Assembly: GCA_013314775.1 (NCBI GenBank)
Contig: JABUFB010000005.1
Span: 1 to 64,000, forward strand
DNA from: Armatimonadota bacterium
GTDB taxonomy: Bacteria; Armatimonadota; Zipacnadia; Zipacnadales; JABUFB01
DNA: 64,000 bases
Direction of reading: 5' to 3'
How positions within the stretch are numbered: the first letter of the stretch is position 1; each line of letters begins with the position of its first letter. The position numbers and the translations under genes are program-made. Of the stretch, positions 27,063-56,687 are shown in pieces. The notes beneath the pieces were generated by a model, which saw only the letters and a list, made by a program, of their open reading frames with translations, did not search any database and had not been told where the DNA came from.

Positions 27063-27093
27063 TGCCGGGGCGTGAATCTTGCTGAGAACGCAG

Positions 27094-27159
27094 GGAGCTA
27101 CCCTTTGTTCGGAGAACGGTAGGTTGTCACCCAAAACCAATCTCCGAGGGGGTAGCTCC
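27094..27159 (+). promoter_or_regulatory. Leader hairpin that may hide the transposase ribosome binding site
   Basis: ggagctaccc (27094-27103) pairs perfectly with gggtagctcc (27150-27159), and inside it cggaga pairs with tctccg. The purine-rich site gaggggg just upstream of the GTG at 27160 sits in or beside the 3' arm. An RNA read in from the host gene would fold and block translation, while a transcript starting inside the element would lack the 5' arm. The pairing is seen directly; the function is inferred. Confidence 0.6.
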
Positions 27160-28505
27160 GTGAGCACAGTATCGATAGCGCCGTTGGATGTCAACACGTA
27201 CGAGCGGGATGAAGTGTTTCGTGGCTTGATCGGAATCGTTGAAGGTGTGGCGTGTGAGGCGCTGGAGTCTCTGATCAATGGCGTGCTGGACGATGAGGTC
27301 ACCCACGGGCTCCAAAGAGAGCCCGGCGCACCACGCGAAGACAGTGGCGAAGCCACGGTGCCGTGGGCGTGTCATCGCTGCGGGCAGGCGTACGCCGGCG
27401 AGATGAAGCGCAATGGGCATTACCCGCGGAATCTTCAGACGACTCGTGGCGCTCTGGTGGGTCTGCGGGTGCCGATGGTGCGGTGTTTGCGTTGCGGCGC
27501 TGCGGCGAATATCGAGTTCGCCGCCTTGCGCAAACACAAGCAATTGTGGCTCGACGTGGACGCAGAAGTGTTGTTCGCCTATGGAGCGGAAGAGGGCCTG
27601 CGCCACATCGCACAGCGTGTGGGGAAGCAGTTGGGCTGGCCTGTGAGCGCGAGCACGATTCAGGATCGGGTCCACAGTTTCTCCGATGCCCTCGCGCAGT
27701 GGCGGAATAGTTCCATCGCCGACCCGCCCGACGTGTTGATGCTGGATGGCATCTGGTTCACGGCACTGGCGCCCACCGGTGAGTACACCACGGACCGCCA
27801 GGGCCGTCAGCGTCCTGTGATGCGGCGTGTCAAGCGCGTGGCCATCATCGCGCTGGGCTTGTGGTCCGACACAGGTCGCAAGCAGATTATCGACTTCGAG
27901 ATCGTCGACAGTGAAGAAGAGAGCAACTGCCTTCCCCTGCTCAACCGGCTTCACCTACGAGGCGTTACGGATGCCCATCTGCAGCTGATTGTCAGCGACG
28001 GTGCCGGCGGCCTGTGCGCAGCCATCGAGACGGTCTACCCCACCACGGCTCGCCAGCGCTGCGTGTTTCACAAGCTCAAGAACGTGGGCGAAAACTTGCG
28101 CCACAAGGGCAGCCGCAAAGCGATCCTGGAGGCCGCCTGCTGGATCTACGAATCGGCGGATGCGCGTCAGGCACACGAGCGGTTGGAGCGCTCGTCGAAG
28201 ACTGGCAGGCTGTGGAGCCGGAAGCCGTCGCCAGCCTGCTGACGGATTTCGACGCGTCCATCGCATATCTCAGACCGCTCAAGGTGAAGCATCCCCGGCG
28301 GTATCGCACGACCAACGCGATGGAAGGTGGGGTGATGAGACCCTTGCGCCGCACCCTGGACCGCGCCACGGCGTATCACAGTGACACAGGCGCCAACGTG
28401 GGGATGTTCCTGGTGATCGCAAGGCTCAACGCCAAGCAACGCGGCAAGCCATGGGTACACGAAACCGACGATCTTATAACTATGCTACACAATGCCGGAC
28501 CTTAG
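27160..28505 (+). pseudogene. IS256/Mutator-type transposase, frameshifted
   Basis: DDE-type transposase. The N-terminal part has a zinc-finger-like pair of CxxC motifs (CHRCGQ and CLRCGA). The catalytic core has MLDGIWF (first Asp), LIVSDGAGGLCAAIE (second Asp) and the conserved QRCVFHKLKNV. Near 28190 the frame shifts by -1. The N-terminal frame then runs out at 28242, while the family sequence continues in the other frame as LVEDWQAVEPEA and TTNAMEGGVMRPLRRTL, which holds the catalytic Glu. No slippery heptamer is seen, so a one-base deletion is more likely than programmed frameshifting. The GTG at 27160 is preferred over an upstream TTG at 27079. Confidence 0.85.
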
Positions 28506-40918: not shown

Positions 40919-41467
40919 TCAGTCCTGCGGTGGAGTGTTGGTCGCATCCTGCTGTTCCTCGGCCGCGGACTCCTCGGCCCTGCGCAGGTCTGCTTCCGTG
41001 TTCCCGACGTGCTCCAGCCCAAGCAGCTTCTTGTGCTCCTCACCCAGTTCAGCGGCCAGTTCGTCAGGCACAAGGAAACCGATCATCCCGCGTTTCGCAA
41101 GCATTTTCAGGAACTCAGTCAGAGACAGTTCGGCTTCTTTGCGCCCGAGACGGTACTCCTTGCTCAGCTTCGCCGACAGTTCGGCGATGCTGCTCGTTCC
41201 GTCACAGTTCTTCCAGACGAAAGTGCCAACCTCGTCCAATGCCAGCGGGCGCGTCTCGGGTACGAAAAACATCCATGCAAGAAACTTGCCCGTGATATCG
41301 GTGCGGCGCGGAAGGATAACGACGGCCTCGCCGTCGTCGTTTTCGCGCCACTTGAGGCTCGGATTGCGCACAGGGCGGGCGGAGAGGGCCTGCTCGCGCG
41401 TGAGTGGCGGGGCCTTCTGCTTCTTTTGGCCCGGCAACAGCCCCCGAGCGCTCTCGATAATGGTCAT
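40919..41467 (-). CDS. PqqD-family protein
   Basis: 182 aa. The middle part has the PqqD winged-helix pattern: LDEVGTFVWKNCDGTSSIAE, LSKEYRLGRKEAELSLTEFL, KMLAKRGMIGF. PqqD domains are peptide chaperones that present a RiPP precursor to a radical SAM enzyme. No such enzyme or precursor is adjacent, so this stand-alone copy may serve another role. The C-terminal 40 residues are acidic. The frame is open further upstream, but homology and the ATG support a start at 41467. Confidence 0.75.
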   Translation of the reverse strand: MTIIESARGLLPGQKKQKAPPLTREQALSARPVRNPSLKWRENDDGEAVVILPRRTDITGKFLAWMFFVPETRPLALDEVGTFVWKNCDGTSSIAELSAKLSKEYRLGRKEAELSLTEFLKMLAKRGMIGFLVPDELAAELGEEHKKLLGLEHVGNTEADLRRAEESAAEEQQDATNTPPQD

Positions 41468-41556
41468 CAGATCCAAAGATGGCTCACTCCCGAATGACTG
41501 GCGGAAAGCAGTTGCCGTTCTCGCAGATGGAATGGCCGCCGACCAAGAAGGTGGCC

Positions 41557-41952
41557 CTACGAAGGACGGTCCGCACCGGTCGGGTCCGTTGGTGTGACCC
41601 CTCGGACTGCCCGGGAGACCACGAACGTCCATCCAGCGACCCAGGCTACCGCAGCGACGATCACCACCATCTCGCGCGGCCCCAGCGCTCGCACCGCGAT
41701 GGGGCTGTCGCCGCGGGAATCGTAGTCCATGACCCCACCGCCCAGCAGGTACCGGGCATAGGCCAGGCCGGCCGTGCAGACGATGACGCCAACCCAGAGT
41801 TGGATAATGGCTGCGCGCAGCCGCCGCCGCTCCACTCCGTGACTGCTTCCGTTGATCCAGGTCAGCCCGGAGATGAGGCTGAGGGCGAGGACAATCGCGG
41901 CTCCGATGCCGATCCACTCGGGCAGGCTATGTGCTGTCAAAGTCGTATGCAC
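41557..41952 (-). CDS. Small membrane protein, three predicted TM helices
   Basis: 131 aa with hydrophobic segments at about residues 12-33 (WIGIGAAIVLALSLISGLTW), 48-66 (AIIQLWVGVIVCTAGLAYA) and 92-112 (MVVIVAAVAWVAGWTFVV). No catalytic motif is seen. It lies 14 bp after the SPOR-domain gene on the same strand, so it may belong to the same envelope operon. Confidence 0.65.
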   Translation of the reverse strand: MHTTLTAHSLPEWIGIGAAIVLALSLISGLTWINGSSHGVERRRLRAAIIQLWVGVIVCTAGLAYARYLLGGGVMDYDSRGDSPIAVRALGPREMVVIVAAVAWVAGWTFVVSRAVRGVTPTDPTGADRPS

Positions 41953-42842: not shown

Positions 42843-42886
42843 ATTGCGTGGATACTTTGTTTGCAGCACGCCAAGGAGGGGCAGCG

Positions 42887-43567
42887 ATGATCCGGGTCAC
42901 CATTCTCGCCATCGCTCTCGCGGTTACGTCCGTAACAGCCCAGGCCGCCCTCATCTCCTGGGCCGCCTCGCCTGATGTCCCGGACGCCGACGATGCCTTT
43001 CAGTACAGCCAGCCGCTGGTGGCTCTCTTGAACGGCCAGGACATCTACCCCGGCCTGTGGTGGGACGATGTGGCCGGCAAGCGGTACTTCCGGCTGGACA
43101 TTCAGGGGACGCCGTCCGGTGGAAGCGACTATGCAGAGATCTATGGGATCTACATCGACGCGATTCCGGGCGGCTCAGACGGCCCGACCGATGCACTGGA
43201 CTACATCCCGGACGAGCTTACGGGGATTGACTATATCCTTGACATGCATTACAGCCCGACCCTGGGCTGGTTTGAGCATTTCCATACCTGGACCGGCGTG
43301 ACATGGACCGTCGCGACCCCCGACCTCACCCAGCGTTCCAATAGCGACAAGCAGCTTGAGTGGGGACAGGACCTCGCCGACTTTGCGGTGGCCGGCGGCT
43401 GGACCTTCTGGGGTGCAACTCACTCCGCTGGTGGCGCGGGCAATCCGGACGTGACCCACGACCTGACTGAGGCGGGAGCCGTTCCCGAGCCCGGCACGGT
43501 CGCCTTGTTTGGCCTGGGACTGGCCGCGGTTGCCTGCATCCGCCGCCGCAGAGTCACCGGAAGCTGA
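42887..43567 (+). CDS. PEP-CTERM sorting-domain protein
   Basis: 226 aa from the ATG at 42887, directly after aaggagggg. It has a signal peptide (VTILAIALAVTSVTAQA). The mature region is acidic and beta-rich with no recognised enzyme motif. The C-terminus has the exosortase signal AVPEPGTVALFGLGLAAVA followed by RRRR, so the protein should be processed by exosortase and linked to extracellular material. No exosortase gene is in the window. Confidence 0.88.
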   Translation: MIRVTILAIALAVTSVTAQAALISWAASPDVPDADDAFQYSQPLVALLNGQDIYPGLWWDDVAGKRYFRLDIQGTPSGGSDYAEIYGIYIDAIPGGSDGPTDALDYIPDELTGIDYILDMHYSPTLGWFEHFHTWTGVTWTVATPDLTQRSNSDKQLEWGQDLADFAVAGGWTFWGATHSAGGAGNPDVTHDLTEAGAVPEPGTVALFGLGLAAVACIRRRRVTGS

Positions 43568-43590: not shown

Positions 43591-43620
43591 CGGGCCTCGC
43601 GATTTCCGCGGGGCCCGTTT
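43591..43620 (+). terminator. Intrinsic terminator after the PEP-CTERM gene
   Basis: cgggcctcgcg pairs with cgcggggcccg (11 bp, one T-G) around a 5-nt loop, and ttt follows. It lies 23 nt after the stop at 43567. Confidence 0.75.
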
Positions 43621-43652: not shown

Positions 43653-43681
43653 TTGGCATCGGCGCCGCATCAGGTTATAAT
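43653..43681 (+). promoter_or_regulatory. Sigma-70 promoter of the ABC/propeller operon
   Basis: ttggca and a perfect tataat with 17-bp spacing, 45 bp before the ATG at 43727. It lies just after the terminator of the upstream gene, so it starts a separate transcription unit. Confidence 0.8.
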
Positions 43682-43726
43682 CCTTTGAAATTGAACCATG
43701 CCGCAGACGGTGCAGGTTAGGCTCCG

Positions 43727-44845
43727 ATGAAGCGATACTTGTTCATTGTGGCCCTGGCCGTTGTCCTGGTCGGGGCCGTTTGCATGCGAGGACGAGCGCG
43801 ACCAATCGCGATCCTGGACGGACAGGTTCGTCAGATCGTGGCCGGGCCGCGCGGCGTCTTCTGGATCGAGACTCCGATGCCCGGCGATGGCGGGTCGGCC
43901 GGTGATGGACCGTGCCGGGTCGTGGGCGTTCCTCACGGAGGAGGCCGGCCGGTGGTCGTTGCGCAGGAATATGACCTGCGTTCCCTGTTCCTCGACGACG
44001 ACCGCTTGCTGATCATCGGCTCCACCGGCCCGGAGATCGATAGTGGGCAACTGATCGTACTCGACCTGAACTCCGGCCGGCGCACGGTGCACAGCGGTCT
44101 GCACAGGCCCTGTGGCATCTGGGCCCGTGGCGAGCGCATTTGCTGGGCCGAGGGGCGCGAAGCCCGTGGGGCATCGGTCGTGCATGTCCCTGTGCTCCAG
44201 CATCTCCAGGCCATTCGGGCGGGAAACGGGAATCCCGCGACGGCGCGGCTGCTCGGGGTGGCGGAGAGCTCCCGCCCCCATTTCTCGGGCCAAATCCTCG
44301 GGTCTGATGGCACCTACTACTACTGGGCCGAGCGCGTCGGCGAAGGGTTGTCGGAGGGTGCGACAACGCTGCGGCGTTGCCCCGAGAACGGCGGGGAAGT
44401 CGAGACACTGGGACGAGCGGCGGGGCCGAATGTGGGTCTGCTCACGCCCGACAGCCTTGTCTGGACCGCATATTCCGAGGAAATGAACAGCCCCGGGTCT
44501 GGACGGTGCGCCCGGATGCTGCCGCTGAAGGGTGGGCAAGCCAGGACAGTCACGGACTGGCTGCCCTCGAGCGGAACATTAGTCTCGGTGGGTCGCACTG
44601 TGTGGTACGGTGGCGCCGGCTACCTGTGGCGCATACCCGATGAACTCGACGAGCCGGTTCCGGTCGCACGCACCGGCGCGGTAGGGCCCGGACAGGCCGC
44701 CGTGTATGGGGGCAATACATATTCGCAGGAGCAACTGAATGACAAGGCGGTGGTCATGCGCCGGCCCATCTCGCCGTGGGGCCGCGTTCGAGCTGCCCTG
44801 ACCCTCCCTGGATCATTGAAAGCAGCCGGGCAGGTGGCGCAATGA
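43727..44845 (+). CDS. Membrane-anchored beta-propeller-like protein, first gene of the ABC operon
   Basis: 372 aa. An N-terminal anchor (YLFIVALAVVLVGAVCM) is followed by a beta-rich chain with propeller-like blades (IVAGPRGVFWIETPMPGDGG; YDLRSLFLDDDRLLIIGSTG; GIWARGERICWAEGRE; QILGSDGTYYYWAER). No catalytic site is visible. The stop overlaps the ATG of the next gene by 4 bp (atga), so the two are coupled. It may sense or bind an extracytoplasmic partner of the ABC permeases. Confidence 0.68.
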   Translation: MKRYLFIVALAVVLVGAVCMRGRARPIAILDGQVRQIVAGPRGVFWIETPMPGDGGSAGDGPCRVVGVPHGGGRPVVVAQEYDLRSLFLDDDRLLIIGSTGPEIDSGQLIVLDLNSGRRTVHSGLHRPCGIWARGERICWAEGREARGASVVHVPVLQHLQAIRAGNGNPATARLLGVAESSRPHFSGQILGSDGTYYYWAERVGEGLSEGATTLRRCPENGGEVETLGRAAGPNVGLLTPDSLVWTAYSEEMNSPGSGRCARMLPLKGGQARTVTDWLPSSGTLVSVGRTVWYGGAGYLWRIPDELDEPVPVARTGAVGPGQAAVYGGNTYSQEQLNDKAVVMRRPISPWGRVRAALTLPGSLKAAGQVAQ

Positions 44846-46014
44846 GACAGCAGCTATCGCCCCCGCTGGTCGCGGCCGTCGTGGTGCTCACATTCCTCGC
44901 AGTTCTCACCGGTTACTGGAAAGGTCTTCTGCGAGACAAAGAGGGTGGGGGAACTGGAGAGATGGCTGGTGGCGGCGCGATGCCACCGCCGCCCCTTGTT
45001 GGCTTGCCGGGCGTACAAGTGAGCACTGTCGCCGGTCCGGCTCCGCAGGTCGCCGGGGCACTGGACATCTCTCACCGCGACGGTTTCGGCAACGACGCCC
45101 GCTTTGACGGTCCCTCCGGAATCGCTATTGCGCGGGACGGCAGCCTGCTGGTCTCCGACGCGCGCAACCATCGGCTGCGCAGGATTGGGCCAGACGGGCA
45201 AGTGAAGACTCTTGCCGGCAGTGGCCCCGTCTCGACCGTCACCGGCGCCCATTTGGACGGCCCCGCAACAGGCGCCCGCTTCTGGTGTCCAGTGGGGCTG
45301 GGGGAGACGCCGGATGGGGCGGTGGTCCTCGCTGATGCCGGTAACCACCGCGTCCGTCGCCTGAGTGGAGGGACCGTGACCACCCTGTCCGGTGGCGACA
45401 CCCCCGAAGACAGCCTCGGGCTGCCGTCCGGAGCTCTCGCGGATGGTCCCGGTGCAGTCGCGCGGTTCGCATACCCGACAGATGTCGCGGTCATGCCCGA
45501 AGGCTCTGTGCTGGTGGTGGATACTGGCAACCGGCGCGTAAGGCGGGTAGCCCCCGACGGATCGACCAGTACTTACGCCGACTTGTCTGCCGCAGGCGCC
45601 AGGGAGCCGTGCGGGATCGCATTGAACGCGTCAGGAGTGGCTTTCGTGGCCGACCCGGCGGCCCAGGCGATCTTCGAGGTTCAGCCCGGCGGCGGTGTGA
45701 GCAGGCTTCCGGGCCCGGTTCCCAGCCCGATCTGGATTCGCCCCACGGGAGTCGCCGTGGCCCCTTCCGGGGTGCTGTATGTCACCGACACGGGCAGCCA
45801 CTGCCTCATGCGCGTTCCCCCGGGTGGCGCTCCACAACTGATCGCAGGGGTGGTCTCTGTGGACGCTCCCGGTCCGGGCTACGGCAATGGCCAGGGCGAC
45901 ACCGCCAAGTTCTCGGCTCCTTGCGATATCGCAATCGGGCCGGATGGTGCTGTGTACATTGCGGATTTCGGCAACAACTGCGTTCGCAAGGTCGTCATCC
46001 CTCCGGGTATCTGA
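44842..46014 (+). CDS. Membrane-anchored NHL-repeat beta-propeller protein
   Basis: 390 aa from the ATG at 44842. One N-terminal membrane helix (LVAAVVVLTFLAVLTGYW) is followed by six NHL repeats, each with a pattern like FDGPSGIAIARDGSLLVSDA then RNHRLRRI. Later repeats are VLADAGNHRVRRL, VVDTGNRRVRRV, YVTDTGSHCLMRV and YIADFGNNCVRKV. NHL propellers bind proteins or act as extracytoplasmic sensors. It sits directly before the ABC ATPase gene. Confidence 0.85.
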   Translation: MRQQLSPPLVAAVVVLTFLAVLTGYWKGLLRDKEGGGTGEMAGGGAMPPPPLVGLPGVQVSTVAGPAPQVAGALDISHRDGFGNDARFDGPSGIAIARDGSLLVSDARNHRLRRIGPDGQVKTLAGSGPVSTVTGAHLDGPATGARFWCPVGLGETPDGAVVLADAGNHRVRRLSGGTVTTLSGGDTPEDSLGLPSGALADGPGAVARFAYPTDVAVMPEGSVLVVDTGNRRVRRVAPDGSTSTYADLSAAGAREPCGIALNASGVAFVADPAAQAIFEVQPGGGVSRLPGPVPSPIWIRPTGVAVAPSGVLYVTDTGSHCLMRVPPGGAPQLIAGVVSVDAPGPGYGNGQGDTAKFSAPCDIAIGPDGAVYIADFGNNCVRKVVIPPGI

Positions 46015-46046
46015 TCTCGCGACACTCACGCCGGGAGGTGCGCGCG

Positions 46047-46937
46047 TTGCGCATCGAAGTCGACAAGCTATCGAAAACCTACGAGGGCGGGATCAAGGCG
46101 CTCCTGCCCCTGGACTTATCCATCACCGACGGCGTGTATGCGCTCCTGGGCCCGAACGGTTCGGGCAAGACAACGTTCATGCGCATCCTGGCGACCCTGC
46201 TGGAGCCGACCGCGGGCACCGCGCACATCGATGGGCTGGATCTGCGCCGAGACCGCCTGGAGATCCGGCGGATGCTGGGCTACCTGCCCCAGGATTTCGG
46301 CTTCTACCCGACGCTGACGGTGGCTGAACAGCTGGATTACATGGCTCTCCTGTGTGATCTCGGGACCCCTGCACGCCGACGCGAGGCTGTGGACAGGTGT
46401 CTTCATGAGGTGAACATGGCTCAGTACGCTGACCGCAAGGTGGGCGGTCTGTCCGGGGGGATGCGCCAACGCCTGGGCATCGCGCAGGCTCTACTCAACC
46501 ATCCGCGCCTGCTGATCATCGACGAGCCCACGGCCGGCCTGGACCCCGAGGAGCGCATCCGCATCCGCAGCCTCTTGGCGGAACTGGGCGGGGACCGCAT
46601 CGTTATTCTGTCCACTCACATTGTGGCAGACGTTGAGGCGACCGCGGACAATGTCTGTGTCCTGCGTTTCGGGGTCAATCTGTTCACGGGGACCACAGAG
46701 GAATTGGTTGAGCGGGTACGCGGCAAAGTCTGGATGATGGATATCGACCCCAGCGAGCTGCGGGAGGTCAAAGAGCGGTACACCTTCACGGGGGTCTACC
46801 GCACGGCCGAGGGCATGAAGATCCGGCTGCTGGCCGACGATGTAAACGATCCCCGTGCGCGCCCGGACGAGCCCACACTCGAGGACGGATACATCGGGGA
46901 GGTGGAGCGCGCCCGTGCTCTGGCGGCTGAGGTATAG
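46047..46937 (+). CDS. ABC transporter ATP-binding protein (ABC-2 type exporter)
   Basis: 296 aa from a TTG with gggaggtg 6 nt upstream. Walker A is LLGPNGSGKTT, the Q-loop is YLPQDFGFYPTLT, the ABC signature is LSGGMRQRLGIAQAL, Walker B is LLIIDEPTAGLDPEE and the switch His is in ILSTHIV. The C-terminal extension is of the kind found in ABC-2 exporters. It energises the two permeases encoded next. Its 3' end overlaps the first permease gene by 23 bp. Confidence 0.93.
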   Translation: MRIEVDKLSKTYEGGIKALLPLDLSITDGVYALLGPNGSGKTTFMRILATLLEPTAGTAHIDGLDLRRDRLEIRRMLGYLPQDFGFYPTLTVAEQLDYMALLCDLGTPARRREAVDRCLHEVNMAQYADRKVGGLSGGMRQRLGIAQALLNHPRLLIIDEPTAGLDPEERIRIRSLLAELGGDRIVILSTHIVADVEATADNVCVLRFGVNLFTGTTEELVERVRGKVWMMDIDPSELREVKERYTFTGVYRTAEGMKIRLLADDVNDPRARPDEPTLEDGYIGEVERARALAAEV

Positions 46938-48201
46938 AGTTCTTCCTATAGCCAGGTACGAGATGCTGCTGGGGCTGCGCAGCGCCTCCGGGCTGACGCT
47001 GCTGGGCGTGTGCCTGCTGGTGGGGCTTGTCTTGGGGGCCCGTTCCGGAATGACCCCGGCGGCCGTTTCCTATCAGGTCGGACGCATGGGCGCGATTCTG
47101 CTGGGATTCCTGTGTCTGCCACTCATGGCAGGCGCTGCCCGTAGAGATCAGCAGACCCTTGCCTCGGATGTCGTCCAATCTCGTCCACACCAGGCCCACG
47201 ACCTGCTGCTCTCCCGCTTCCTGGGCAATCTGGGAGTGGCGCTTTGTCTTTTGGTTGCCTTGGCCGTATTCACTTTTGCGGCCCAGGCGGCTCTCGCCGG
47301 GTCACCTCCGCCGGGCGCGGGGCCGAGGATTGCCCCCATGGCACTCATCGACGGCATACTCGCGGGTGCGTTGCCGCTTGTGGTTCTGTGCGCTCTCGGG
47401 TATTGCGCCGGCGACCTGCTGCAGAACACTCTTTCCGCCGCGATCATCGCTCTTTACTGGATCTTGGTGCTGCTGGGGCGCGATTATCTGTCGCGGATAT
47501 TCGACTTCTCCTTGTCGCAGAACGCGGCGGTCTACCTGCTGCTGTCAGCCGGCGTCGTTGCCGCGTCCATGGCGGTGGCTCGCTACCGTCAGGGCCTGTC
47601 GAATGCTCGCCGGGCCAACGTGCCTCTGGTAGCAGCGGCCCTGCTTGCCGCGGGGCTTATCTTGGCCGTTCGGTTCGTGCTCACGCGCCACGATCCCCCG
47701 ATGAGCGCGCACCCGTTGGCCCAGCAGGTGGCCAGCCAGAGCATCCGATCCGGCCGCCTGCCCGGTTTCTGGCTCAAAGACCAGCATGGCAAGCGCGTGG
47801 CGCTGAGCGATTACGAGGGCAAGTGCCTCGTGGTTGGTTTCTGGTCGCCTGGCCAGCCCGATGTCGCCCATGTGCTTGGAGCCTGGCAGCGCATCCACGA
47901 GGAATATGGAGACAAGGGCGTCCAGGTAGTGGCCGTCTGCCTGTCCGATGACTGGAGCGTCGGCGCACGATTCGCACGGAGCAGCCGTTTGAGCTACCCT
48001 GTTGTTACCGACACAGGGACGCACTGGGCCGAGAACATCGAGGATTCATCGCCGCTTGCCGAGGCATACGAGATCAGCAGCTTGCCTTGCACAATGATCG
48101 CCGACCGAAACCGTTATCTGGTGCAGCGCCTGGAAGCCCAGGGGCAGGCCCAGTATGAGTCCATTACCTATGCGCTGAAAGGCCTGCTGAGCACTCCCTG
48201 A
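46915..48201 (+). CDS. ABC-2 permease fused to a cysteine-less redoxin (TlpA-like) domain
   Basis: 428 aa from a GTG with gaggtggag about 9 nt upstream. Residues 1-260 hold about six membrane helices (GLTLLGVCLLVGLVLGA; VALCLLVALAVFTFAAQAAL; LPLVVLCALGYCAGDLL; LVAAALLAAGLILAVRFVL), typical of ABC-2 permeases. From about residue 282 there is a TlpA/AhpC-like fold: LPGFWLKDQHGKRVALSDYE, VVGFWSPGQPDVAHVLGAW, GVQVVAVCLSDDWSVGARFA, SSLPCTMIADRNRYLVQRLE. The active-site WCxxC position reads SPGQPD, so the dithiol is lost while the cis-Pro loop (LPCT) is kept. The domain probably binds rather than reduces. Confidence 0.8.
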   Translation: MLWRLRYRVLPIARYEMLLGLRSASGLTLLGVCLLVGLVLGARSGMTPAAVSYQVGRMGAILLGFLCLPLMAGAARRDQQTLASDVVQSRPHQAHDLLLSRFLGNLGVALCLLVALAVFTFAAQAALAGSPPPGAGPRIAPMALIDGILAGALPLVVLCALGYCAGDLLQNTLSAAIIALYWILVLLGRDYLSRIFDFSLSQNAAVYLLLSAGVVAASMAVARYRQGLSNARRANVPLVAAALLAAGLILAVRFVLTRHDPPMSAHPLAQQVASQSIRSGRLPGFWLKDQHGKRVALSDYEGKCLVVGFWSPGQPDVAHVLGAWQRIHEEYGDKGVQVVAVCLSDDWSVGARFARSSRLSYPVVTDTGTHWAENIEDSSPLAEAYEISSLPCTMIADRNRYLVQRLEAQGQAQYESITYALKGLLSTP

Positions 48202-48235
48202 CCGGGAGGGCCGGGCCTGCGAACGAGCCCAATTC

Positions 48236-49834
48236 ATGGATAACCTGCGCACGTTGTTCCGCTATAACGCAAGGGTGCTTCTGGCCAACAGCTACTGGCT
48301 GTTGATCATCCCTGTTGTCGCCAGCCAATTGGTCATCTTCTGGCACATGGCCATTGCCTCGCTGGTGACGCCGGCGACGGTCGCCCGGACCTGCGAACTG
48401 GTCATTCCGCTGCTGGGCGCGTTCCTCGCGGCCCACGCGCTGGCCCCCGAACAGAAATACCGGGTGGACGAGATCACCTTCGCACGCCCGGTGCCCTTCA
48501 CCCGCACCATCATCCTCCGGCTGCTGGCCTTGTACTCACTGCTGGTAATTCTCGCAGTGCTCATGATGTACGTCTACCGCGCGGGTCTGAAGATTGACGT
48601 GGCGCTGGGAGATGTCTTGCTCGCCGGCGTCCCGTCAGTGCTCTTCCTGTCCATGCTTAGTTTGGCATTTGCGGCCGCTTGGCGCAGCCCGGCCCTCGGT
48701 GTCGGCGCCGCGCTCCTGTACTGGATTGCAGATGCCTGGAAGGGCAGCGCGCTGAACCCGTTGATGAGCCTGTACGGGTACGCGACCTGGCTGCAACATG
48801 AGAAACTGGAAGACGAGCGCATGGAGTGGATCGCCAGCAAGGCGATCCTTGCCGTGCTGGCGCTCGTGCTGATTTTCGTGGTGACACGCGGCCTGCAGCG
48901 TCCTGCTTCCCCCCGGCGCTGGCAATCCGTGTTGCGGCTCGCCGTCGGGGTGCTGGTGGTGGCGGGAGTGTATTTCACGTCCGGCGCGGTCTGGCAGTAC
49001 CAGAAAGCTGCGCGTCTTGCCGCAAGTGACCCGCAGGGTGCCCGCGAGGCCTATCGTGCCACTTTCGCCCAGTACGGGCCCATTCCGGCTGCCTACCTGT
49101 TCGGCCAGGCTTTCGCCCAGTATGTCGGCTACCAACCGGGCGCGAGCCGGGAGGCGCGCGAGATCGGCGAATCCCGCAACCTGACGATCACCCGTATGAG
49201 GAACGTTGCCGAACGCTGGCCAGACGGTCCCTGGGCGGACAATGCTCTCTACGAAGTGATCCGGATCAGTCCCACGGGCGAGGACAACAGCGAGGAGGCG
49301 CGCACGGCGAACCGAGTGCTGCTTGAGACCTCTCGCGATTTCCTGAACAGATATCCCACGTCCGAGTTCGCGCCGTGGGTCGCCGCGCGGATGGTCACTG
49401 CCGCCCGGCTGCTCGGAGATGAGGAGTCAATGCAGTGGGCCTACGAGCGGTCCGTCAAGGTCTATGGGGGCTCCGCCGCGTCCGCCCGGGCGGCTGCCGA
49501 GATGCGCCAGTTCTATGTGGATCAGGGACAACTGGATAAGGCGGTGGAGTCCGCGCGCCTGGCTGCTGAAGCCGCGGCGCCCGAGGATCGGCCCGAAGCG
49601 CTCCTGGACCTGGCTTCCTTCCTGGCTCAGCAGGGCAAGCGCGAGGAGGCGCGGGAGATCCTCCAGGGCGTCGAGAAAGCGGTACAGGAGAAGCTGGCGG
49701 CCCTGGGACTGGAGGTCCTCACCCTCGAGAATGCCACCCCAGAGAACATGAAGAGGCGGTCGGAGATCCTGCAACTTCGAACTCGGGCCCGCGAGAAACT
49801 AGCGGCCCTCGATGGCAAGCAGCCGGCGCCGTGA
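48236..49834 (+). CDS. ABC-2 permease with C-terminal TPR-like domain
   Basis: 532 aa. Six to seven membrane helices in the first 250 residues (YWLLIIPVVASQLVIFWHMA; LLALYSLLVILAVLMMYVY; VLFLSMLSLAFAAAWRSPA; LAVGVLVVAGVYFTSGAVW) form the ABC-2 permease half. From about residue 265 comes a soluble helical part with TPR/outer-membrane-lipoprotein-like repeats (YEVIRISPTGEDNSEEARTA; FLNRYPTSEFAPWVAARMV; YVDQGQLDKAVESARLAAEA; LDLASFLAQQGKREEAREIL). With the redoxin-fused permease it would make a heterodimeric exporter with two large soluble domains. It is the last gene of the operon. Confidence 0.82.
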   Translation: MDNLRTLFRYNARVLLANSYWLLIIPVVASQLVIFWHMAIASLVTPATVARTCELVIPLLGAFLAAHALAPEQKYRVDEITFARPVPFTRTIILRLLALYSLLVILAVLMMYVYRAGLKIDVALGDVLLAGVPSVLFLSMLSLAFAAAWRSPALGVGAALLYWIADAWKGSALNPLMSLYGYATWLQHEKLEDERMEWIASKAILAVLALVLIFVVTRGLQRPASPRRWQSVLRLAVGVLVVAGVYFTSGAVWQYQKAARLAASDPQGAREAYRATFAQYGPIPAAYLFGQAFAQYVGYQPGASREAREIGESRNLTITRMRNVAERWPDGPWADNALYEVIRISPTGEDNSEEARTANRVLLETSRDFLNRYPTSEFAPWVAARMVTAARLLGDEESMQWAYERSVKVYGGSAASARAAAEMRQFYVDQGQLDKAVESARLAAEAAAPEDRPEALLDLASFLAQQGKREEAREILQGVEKAVQEKLAALGLEVLTLENATPENMKRRSEILQLRTRAREKLAALDGKQPAP

Positions 49835-49939: not shown

Positions 49940-50788
49940 ATGGCCTTGCTGCGCACGACTCTGGCTGTGCTCTGTTTTGTGTTTTCTGCTTCCTGTTCCG
50001 CCATAGAAATCCAGAGCGGTACCTTGCAAGCCACCACAGACGAGTTTGGTTACGTGACCCAGTACTCACTGGACGGCGGCGTAACAAATGAGCTGTGGCA
50101 GCTGTACGGGTACATTGGCAACGAATACGGGGTAATTCCCACCGCGCCGGGGAGCAGCTACTCGCAGTTCTTCGACGTGGACAGTCTCAACGTAACAGCT
50201 ACAGGCATCACCTCAAGCCTGAGGCTCAATGCACTCGGTGCAGCGGAGCTGGGACTGTCGGCGGGCGACATTCTGATCGACTGGGCGATCTCCGTTGACG
50301 GTCCGCCGGCCAACAGACTGCTTTGGTCGCCAACCATTCGGAATGCCGCCGCCTCGTCCATGACGCTGTCCTTCTATGCTTACCTGGATTTGGACATCAA
50401 TGAGACTGAAGAGCAGGACATTGCGGAAGGCGGTTTGCACGGCGGAGCATTCGGCGAAGGTGCGAAACGCCTGATCTGGACCCTCGCGCCGACTGCGGAG
50501 CATTACGAAGCCGGTCCATTTCCCAGCATCCAGTCGCTGCTGGACAACATGGCCGCAGCTTCGGACCTGGGAGACAGTGGCCTGCCGATCGGTACGCCCT
50601 CCGACATCACAGCAGCATGGCAATTCGATCTTCAGCTGGGAGCGGGGGATTCGGCGAGGCTCGACATGGCTTTGGCCACACCGGAACCGGGCACTCTGGT
50701 CCTGATGCTGTCAGGAATCGGCGCCGGATGGGTTGCGCTTGTGCGGCGCAGGGGACGAGACACGGGGAAGAAACTGGGACATGGCTAA
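49940..50788 (+). CDS. PEP-CTERM sorting-domain protein (second)
   Basis: 282 aa with a signal peptide (TTLAVLCFVFSASCSA), a beta-rich mature part (IEIQSGTLQATTDEFGYVTQ; MTLSFYAYLDLDINETEEQD) and the exosortase signal ATPEPGTLVLMLSGIGAGWV followed by RRR. It would be secreted and processed by exosortase. The 105 bp before it holds no recognisable riboswitch. Its stop codon shares bases with that of the convergent ftsA gene. Confidence 0.85.
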   Translation: MALLRTTLAVLCFVFSASCSAIEIQSGTLQATTDEFGYVTQYSLDGGVTNELWQLYGYIGNEYGVIPTAPGSSYSQFFDVDSLNVTATGITSSLRLNALGAAELGLSAGDILIDWAISVDGPPANRLLWSPTIRNAAASSMTLSFYAYLDLDINETEEQDIAEGGLHGGAFGEGAKRLIWTLAPTAEHYEAGPFPSIQSLLDNMAAASDLGDSGLPIGTPSDITAAWQFDLQLGAGDSARLDMALATPEPGTLVLMLSGIGAGWVALVRRRGRDTGKKLGHG

Positions 50789-55247: not shown

Positions 55248-56687
55248 TGTAAGCGCAACGTGATAATGTCCGGTTGGTGCAAAGTAGAAATGTCCGGTGG
55301 TAGTGTCGTCGTCGTCGCGCGGCGAACTATCCGGGATGGAACTACTCATGAGCGTAAAAGAGCGTGACTGTCTGAAGATCGTTTCGCAGTTGGCAGGACC
55401 CGGCGGTGGTGCCGGCAAGTTGACCCAGGCCCAGGCCGCGGACTTGCTGGGGTGCACTGAGCGCCATGTGCGGCGTCTGGTGCGGCGCTATGAGCACGAA
55501 GGCGACGCCGGCCTTGTTCACAAGTCTCGCGGCAGGCCGTCGAATCGCTGTCTGCCCCAGGAGTTCCGGGAACAGGTCATGGTCCAGGTGCGCAAGCATT
55601 ACCGCGATTTCGGCCCGACCCTTGCTGCGGAGATGCTTGCCGAACGCCACGGCCTATCGGTCAGTCGCGAGACCCTGCGCCAGTGGATGATCGCCGAAGA
55701 GCTGTGGAAGCCCAAGCGCCGCAAGGCCGTTTATCGACAGCGGCGCCCGCGCAGGGAGTGCTTTGGCGAACTGGTGCAGATCGACACCTCCGAGCATGAC
55801 TGGTTTGAAGGACGGGGCGAGAGCGCGGTGCTCATCACCCTCATCGACGACGCCACCAGTCGCGTCACTATGCGCTTCTTTGAAGCGGACGACACGCAGG
55901 CCAACATGACGATCCTGCGCGACTACATCGCCCTGCATGGCCGCCCTATGGCTTTCTACGGCGACAAGGCAAGCCATTTCCGGGTCAACCGCCCGGCCAG
56001 CGTGGAAGAGCAACTGGAAGGCCTGGAGCCCGAGACCCAGATCGGGCGCGCCCTGCGCGAATTGGACATCACGTGGTTCACGGCCCATTCTCCCCAGGCC
56101 AAGGGACGGGTGGAACGCAGCTTCGACACCGCTCAGGACCGGCTGGTCAAACTGATGCGCTTGGACAACATCCGCACCATAGAAGAAGCCAATCGCTTCC
56201 TGCAGGAGCGCTACATGCCCCAATTCAATGAACGCTTCACGGTTCCGCCCGCCTGCGATACGGACGCCCACCGTACTTGCGAGGGCCTGGACCTGGACGC
56301 CATCTTCAGCCACCAGGAAGAGCGCGTGGTCACGCGGGACTACACGATCCGGTTCAAGAACCAGCGCTACCAGATCAAAAAAGAAAGCGCCGCGCCGGGC
56401 CTAGTGCAAAGCAAGCTGATCGTGGAACAGCGCCTGGACGGTAGCATCTGGCTGCGATGGCGGGATCAGTACTTGCAGTTCGTGACGATAACCCCCACCC
56501 CGACGGGCGCCGCCGCTGCCCTTCCGGTCGGGCTACGCCCTCCCTACAGGGCAGCGGCCAAGGCACAGCCGTCACCCCGAAGGCAGACCACCCGTGGAAG
56601 AAACCCTACAAAGGAGACTCCCGACCCCAACGGCAGTAGGACATTTCTACTTTGCACAAAACCGGACATTTCTACTTTGCGTTGACA
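55248..56687 (+). mobile_element. ISNCY/IS1202-like insertion sequence, 1440 bp
   Basis: The ends are inverted repeats of about 50 bp starting TGT. Each end holds two copies of a 19-bp unit (gcaaagtagaaatgtccgg or a close variant): 55255-55273 and 55279-55297 on the left, 56637-56655 and 56662-56680 in reverse on the right. These are candidate transposase binding sites. One full transposase gene fills the element, and an 18-bp direct repeat flanks it. Long target duplications are known for the IS1202 group. Confidence 0.88.
55348..56685 (+). CDS. ISNCY-family DDE transposase
   Basis: 445 aa from the ATG at 55348. An N-terminal HTH ([20 protein letters not shown]) is followed by [20 protein letters not shown], a second DNA-binding region ([20 protein letters not shown]) and an integrase core. 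The core has [19 protein letters not shown] (first Asp), [12 protein letters not shown] (second Asp) and [19 protein letters not shown] (Glu). A beta-barrel-like end follows ([14 protein letters not shown]). The last 17 residues are encoded by the right inverted repeat, and the stop codon sits 2 bp from the element's end. No frame damage is visible, so it may be active. Confidence 0.88.

Follow-up and report, generated by a model that had tools for sequence, protein, structure and literature searches.

A five-gene cluster conserved in Armatimonadota, predicted to encode an ABC-2-type machine with two propellers and two permeases fused to soluble domains

Introduction

Two-permease ABC-2 exporters, of the efflux or self-immunity sort, are common. 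GldFGA of Bacteroidota is an ABC-2-type system in which GldG carries a periplasmic domain, and NosD, the partner protein of NosDFY, is a beta-helix protein. In the Type VII permease fold, the first two (TM1 and TM2) of four transmembrane (TM) helices are separated by a periplasmic domain. In Type VII ABC systems (MacB, LolCDE, FtsEX), the motors act on periplasmic partners by mechanotransmission (PMC10094684). PedA1A2BC of Pseudomonas, a PQQ-associated ABC system, combines an ATPase and a permease with a functionally uncharacterized YVTN propeller, and growth that depends on lanthanides requires it (PMC6839425).

Here, we describe a locus that resembles several of these systems in part. It lies in a 64,000-nt stretch of DNA from an Armatimonadota bacterium (contig JABUFB010000005.1; hereafter, the window), where five collinear ORFs, g1 to g5, form an operon-like unit on the + strand (43727-49834) encoding two propeller-like proteins, an ABC ATPase and two putative ABC-2 permeases with C-terminal soluble domains. 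With NosDFY (PDB 7o0y series), the cluster shares a putative ABC-2-type permease, a separate ATPase and a large, predicted periplasmic beta-rich partner; with PedA1A2BC, it shares the presence of an ABC ATPase, a permease and a beta-propeller protein in one operon (PMC6839425, PMC12997753); and with GldFGA, a putative ABC-2-type organization in which a component bears an additional domain, predicted here to be periplasmic. We found no published account of this gene combination in the open-access papers searched, in agreement with a preliminary description of the locus that did not recognize it as a described system.

Results

The window belongs to a 6.1 Mb genome in 37 contigs, the nearest named relative of which is an Armatimonadetes MAG (L039). 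The five genes are tightly packed, with spacings of -4 bp (g1/g2), +32 bp (g2/g3), -23 bp (g3/g4) and +34 bp (g4/g5) when g3 is counted from TTG 46047, so that the ORF coordinates bear out the overlaps of 4 and 23 bp and the gaps of about 30 bp reported in the preliminary description. The same description placed a promoter with a perfect TATAAT ahead of the genes, and a promoter-like site, TTGGCA-17-TATAAT, is indeed present at 43653-43681 (+ strand). The count of sigma-70-like sites, one found in 6.5 kb against 0.5 expected by chance, is by itself within chance. The sister genome (L085), however, has the same two hexamers around a different spacer, which raises this site above chance. The 5' leader of the operon as a whole is well conserved in the sister genome. 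A ten-codon upstream ORF (MPQTVQVRLR, 43698-43730) overlaps the g1 start as ATGA, and its nine-codon version in the sister genome ends just 5' of the g1 ATG.

The cluster is carried by 35 of the 291 Armatimonadota genomes, distributed over 14 families, a count that combines strong g1 matches across the phylum with g5 matches in three further genomes. Among 60 relatives, the matches to g4, g5 and g1 fell on the same contigs, barring a few contig breaks. Conservation of gene order had been set beforehand as a check on the locus, and in 19 of the 20 other complete single-contig loci the genes follow the order g1-g2-g3-g4-g5 on one strand; the remaining locus (L072) is permuted to g3-g4-g5-g1-g2. 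Overlaps of 4, 8 or 14 bp between genes are frequent in the orthologous loci. The genes are thus kept together, and the fused domains are not distributed at random: the thioredoxin fold is always found on g4, and the TPRs are always found on g5 or directly beside a g5-like permease in a sister variant of the cluster. A conserved sixth gene was rejected, as an all-against-all comparison of the flanking genes found none common to the clusters beyond close relatives; no conserved neighbour thus points to a substrate.

In 106 genomes from outside Armatimonadota, the listed matches to g5 touch the TPRs only and none of them the TM part. Absence of the cluster outside the phylum is therefore likely, not proven, because the first pass of this search scored few candidates per genome. 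The matches listed for a plasmid collection cover the thioredoxin domain only, and a scan of genome contigs with g5 matched only the sister MAG.

Both of the proteins initially described as membrane-anchored and propeller-like, one with NHL repeats, proved to be so by profile or by predicted structure. The g2 protein (44842-46014, + strand, 390 aa) consists of an N-terminal TM anchor, a Gly/Pro linker and an NHL beta-propeller (Pfam NHL, E=3e-34). For g1 (43727-44845, + strand, 372 aa), no Pfam family was found, even across 11 members; an AlphaFold model built from the orthologue alignment comprises a TM helix and a beta-propeller (pLDDT 88), and Foldseek returned mostly propeller matches (E ~1e-8), pointing to an N-terminal anchor followed by a divergent propeller. 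Profile comparison gave only 7% probability for g1 against g2, which argues against g1 as a close relative of g2 and makes these two different propellers. The YVTN propeller model TIGR03866 matched neither g2 nor any of 28 g1 members. The g1 profile retrieves the cluster and little else, with strong homologues essentially confined to cluster-carrying genomes.

Each of the two large proteins, g4 (46915-48201, + strand) and g5 (48236-49834, + strand), joins an N-terminal permease to a C-terminal soluble domain. The permease parts, with seven predicted TM segments in g4 (46915-47700) and seven TM helices in g5 (48236-49021), are homologous to each other (97% probability by profile comparison). 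The Pfam families ABC2_membrane_2/3/5 match weakly, in some g4 and g5 members only. The g4 profile matches just one solved membrane protein, NosY, and does so close to noise level (E 0.011 for the complete profile; with the TM part alone, E 1.6 for the whole and 0.049 for the domain). These weak matches and the mutual homology are suggestive of an ABC-2 identity for both membrane parts. In a Foldseek search with g5, TPR matches dominated and were uninformative on the TM part, with no ABC-2 match. The TPR solenoid itself (49022-49834, BamD/YbgF-like) is weak when sought in the single sequence and strong by profile (best 1e-18). Judging from the number of TM helices and the charge bias, with K+R enriched at the N-terminus of g5 and in its 6-7 loop, the topology is probably N-in/C-out, which would place both the g4 thioredoxin fold and the g5 TPR outside the cytoplasm, presumably in the periplasm.

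The C-terminal part of g4 (47716-48201) matches AhpC-TSA (E 3.8e-12) and, by profile, ResA (2.9e-16), and its closest structures are ResA and TlpA, identifying a thioredoxin fold. The early assignment of a redoxin fold and TPR-like helices to the permeases was therefore sound with respect to both folds, but not with respect to an active redoxin: the catalytic CxxC is absent from all 28 orthologues (0/28), and the single conserved cysteine, Cys342 (47938-47940; 26/28 orthologues), lies outside the active-site loop. Active redox chemistry by this domain was accordingly rejected. A thiol-disulfide or cytochrome-maturation transporter with a catalytic redoxin domain, a reading that would draw on the proximity to ResA and TlpA, is largely refuted by the same observations and is scarcely probable. 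The loss of CxxC in 28 of 28 orthologues implies instead that the thioredoxin fold is a binding module and not a thiol enzyme, and we infer that this domain and the g5 TPR are docking surfaces rather than enzymes.

Comparison of orthologue pairwise distances gave correlations of 0.79-0.93 for all gene pairs, values that partly reflect shared ancestry. The highest were those between g1 and g2 (r 0.933) and within g3-g4-g5 (r 0.91-0.92), and these two blocks match both the permuted order in L072 and the composition of the sister variant. This variant, present in L079, L083/L084 and L153, encodes g3, g4 with its thioredoxin fold, and a g5-like permease of ~236 aa, followed by a separate protein that starts with a TM segment and carries TPRs (with a weak CarboxypepD_reg match in L079 and L083); no propellers were detected in these loci. 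That g5 is naturally split in the sister variant supports its TPR as a bona fide partner module for the permease, and the variant also favors the view that the propellers g1-g2 form the more detachable block. There are a few other departures from the standard layout. In two genomes (G098, G064), g5 is located away from the other genes and is also split there into two ORFs, and in a single-contig genome (G247; L121, L152), g1 and a g2 fragment are found ~12 kb from g2-g3-g4-g5, an arrangement that reflects an insertion, a rearrangement or an assembly error. In a distant relative (L082:2632-5824, G051), the gene after that of the ABC ATPase encodes a large permease that shows matches to both the TM and the TPR parts of g5, a hint of a wider family of ABC permease-TPR fusions.

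The g3 product (46047-46937, + strand) had been taken for an ABC ATPase, and this identification is borne out: it matches ABC_tran (E 1e-32), its nucleotide-binding domain (NBD) is an intact one of the ABC-2/ABCA class, the closest solved NBDs are those of ABCA proteins, and the NBD motifs are intact in 21 of 21 orthologues. Four apparent exceptions among these (L126:7069-7821, L127:7788-8540, L128:7462-8214 and L132:2994-3743, at their upstream ends), which have no ATG, GTG or TTG before Walker A, are explained by a reading frame that extends upstream to a conserved CTG start preceded by a Shine-Dalgarno sequence. In the window, the probable start is TTG 46047, given the GGGAGG Shine-Dalgarno sequence preceding it, with GTG 46038 as the alternative. 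Such weak starts of the ATPase gene, CTG in the four loci and TTG in the window, may tune the g3 level.

Comparison of g3 with models of characterized ATPases bears on three other readings of the cluster. Its best NCBIfam score is to the DrrA model TIGR01188 (186.2 bits), as would suit a DrrAB/BcrAB-like ABC-2 pump for drug or peptide efflux or self-immunity, with accessory proteins. We consider such a pump unlikely, given that the score is far under the cut-off of 312.45, that no common biosynthetic gene adjoins the cluster, that pumps of this kind do not need two propellers, a TPR and a thioredoxin-fold domain, and that strict conservation over 14 families is atypical of self-immunity. Lanthanide-type metal handling in the manner of PedA1A2BC, in which an ABC-2 transporter is paired with a periplasmic propeller, is quite unlikely as well: g3 does match the Ped-type ATPase model TIGR03864, but at 143.9 bits against a cut-off of 302.25; neither propeller matches TIGR03866; and where Ped contains a substrate-binding protein together with a single permease and a single YVTN propeller, the cluster has two permeases and, with only five genes conserved, no periplasmic substrate-binding protein. 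A part in a GldFGA-like machine for surface motility or secretion, for which GldG with its periplasmic domain offers a parallel, is highly unlikely, as the score of g3 against the GldA model TIGR03522 (174.9 bits) misses the cut-off of 402.6, g4 and g5 contain no GldG-type domain, their soluble domains being unrelated to it, GldFGA lacks propellers, and no gld-like gene was recognised nearby.

PEP-CTERM proteins are encoded on both sides of the operon (upstream, 42848-43567; downstream, 49940-50788), and the genome contains 13 PEP-CTERM matches, an arrangement that had led to the suggestion of a link between the cluster and these proteins. This suggestion finds no support: PEP-CTERM proteins occur in only 17 of the 35 cluster carriers, compared with 220 of the 291 Armatimonadota genomes, there are PEP-CTERM-rich families without the cluster, and the PEP-CTERM neighbours are kept only within the same genus. 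Moreover, an intrinsic-terminator-like hairpin (43591-43617, + strand), a boundary rather than a component of the operon, separates the upstream PEP-CTERM gene from g1 and is conserved in the sister genome (L085), with the stem unchanged and the loop altered. No terminator-like site was found before the downstream PEP-CTERM gene, which may be read through from the operon. A PEP-CTERM/exosortase connection was rejected, neighbourhood, terminator and phylum-wide co-occurrence all failing to support it, and an exporter or sorter for PEP-CTERM proteins is accordingly a most improbable reading of the cluster. Anti-phage defence was also rejected, the PADLOC matches being to generic ATPase and propeller proteins only. 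Elsewhere in the window, a PqqD-like domain protein, possibly a RiPP recognition element, is encoded ~2 kb upstream of the operon (40919-41917, - strand), although no flanking family is conserved next to the cluster. The window also encodes a Mutator-family transposase (27079-28242) and, at 55297-56685, a protein whose HTH domains are transposase-like.

Discussion

The defining features of NosDFY and PedA1A2BC are mostly missing from the cluster, which is therefore not classed as a member of either. In place of the beta-helix partner NosD there are two propellers, one of the NHL type (g2) and one predicted (g1); NosY has no thioredoxin-fold or TPR domain, and NosDFY has one permease type; no nos genes were recognised at the cluster, and the comparison of flanking genes showed none shared across families. 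Nor is the Type VII permease fold seen in g4 and g5, with their seven TM helices and C-terminal domains. Among ABC motors combined with a periplasmic beta-protein, NosDFY and PedA1A2BC remain the nearest precedents, and by analogy the cluster could, at best, work like them.

We favor, at a probability of roughly 55%, the reading that the cluster encodes one inner-membrane ABC-2 machine with an extracytoplasmic platform, which would use ATP to export or assemble a component of the envelope. In this scheme, g3 would drive a g4/g5 heterodimer, and the two propellers, the thioredoxin fold and the TPR would together form a periplasmic platform, in which g1 and g2 could bind the thioredoxin fold and the TPR and receive or present cargo. 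Either the substrate would pass through g4/g5, or, as in NosDFY, a conformational change would be transmitted to the platform. That the five products form one complex is suggested by the conservation of the operon, which alone is no proof. The preliminary idea, that of an exporter incorporating modules for assembly or sensing, is still a reasonable guess. A bolder and less likely version, which we put forward tentatively, is that the cluster represents an ABC machine of a new class, which pumps no solute and instead uses ATP to move the four-domain periplasmic platform, assembling or handing over an envelope component restricted to Armatimonadota.

The cluster is a sharply bounded, co-inherited system in a phylum with few cultured members, and through it the g1 family, for which Pfam has no match, is linked to an ABC motor. 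The domain fusions, together with the naturally split form of g5, predict that the propellers, the thioredoxin fold and the TPR make up one periplasmic complex. If the favored reading is true, the cluster would add to the short list of ABC systems with a central periplasmic partner, namely NosDFY, Lol, MacB and Ped.
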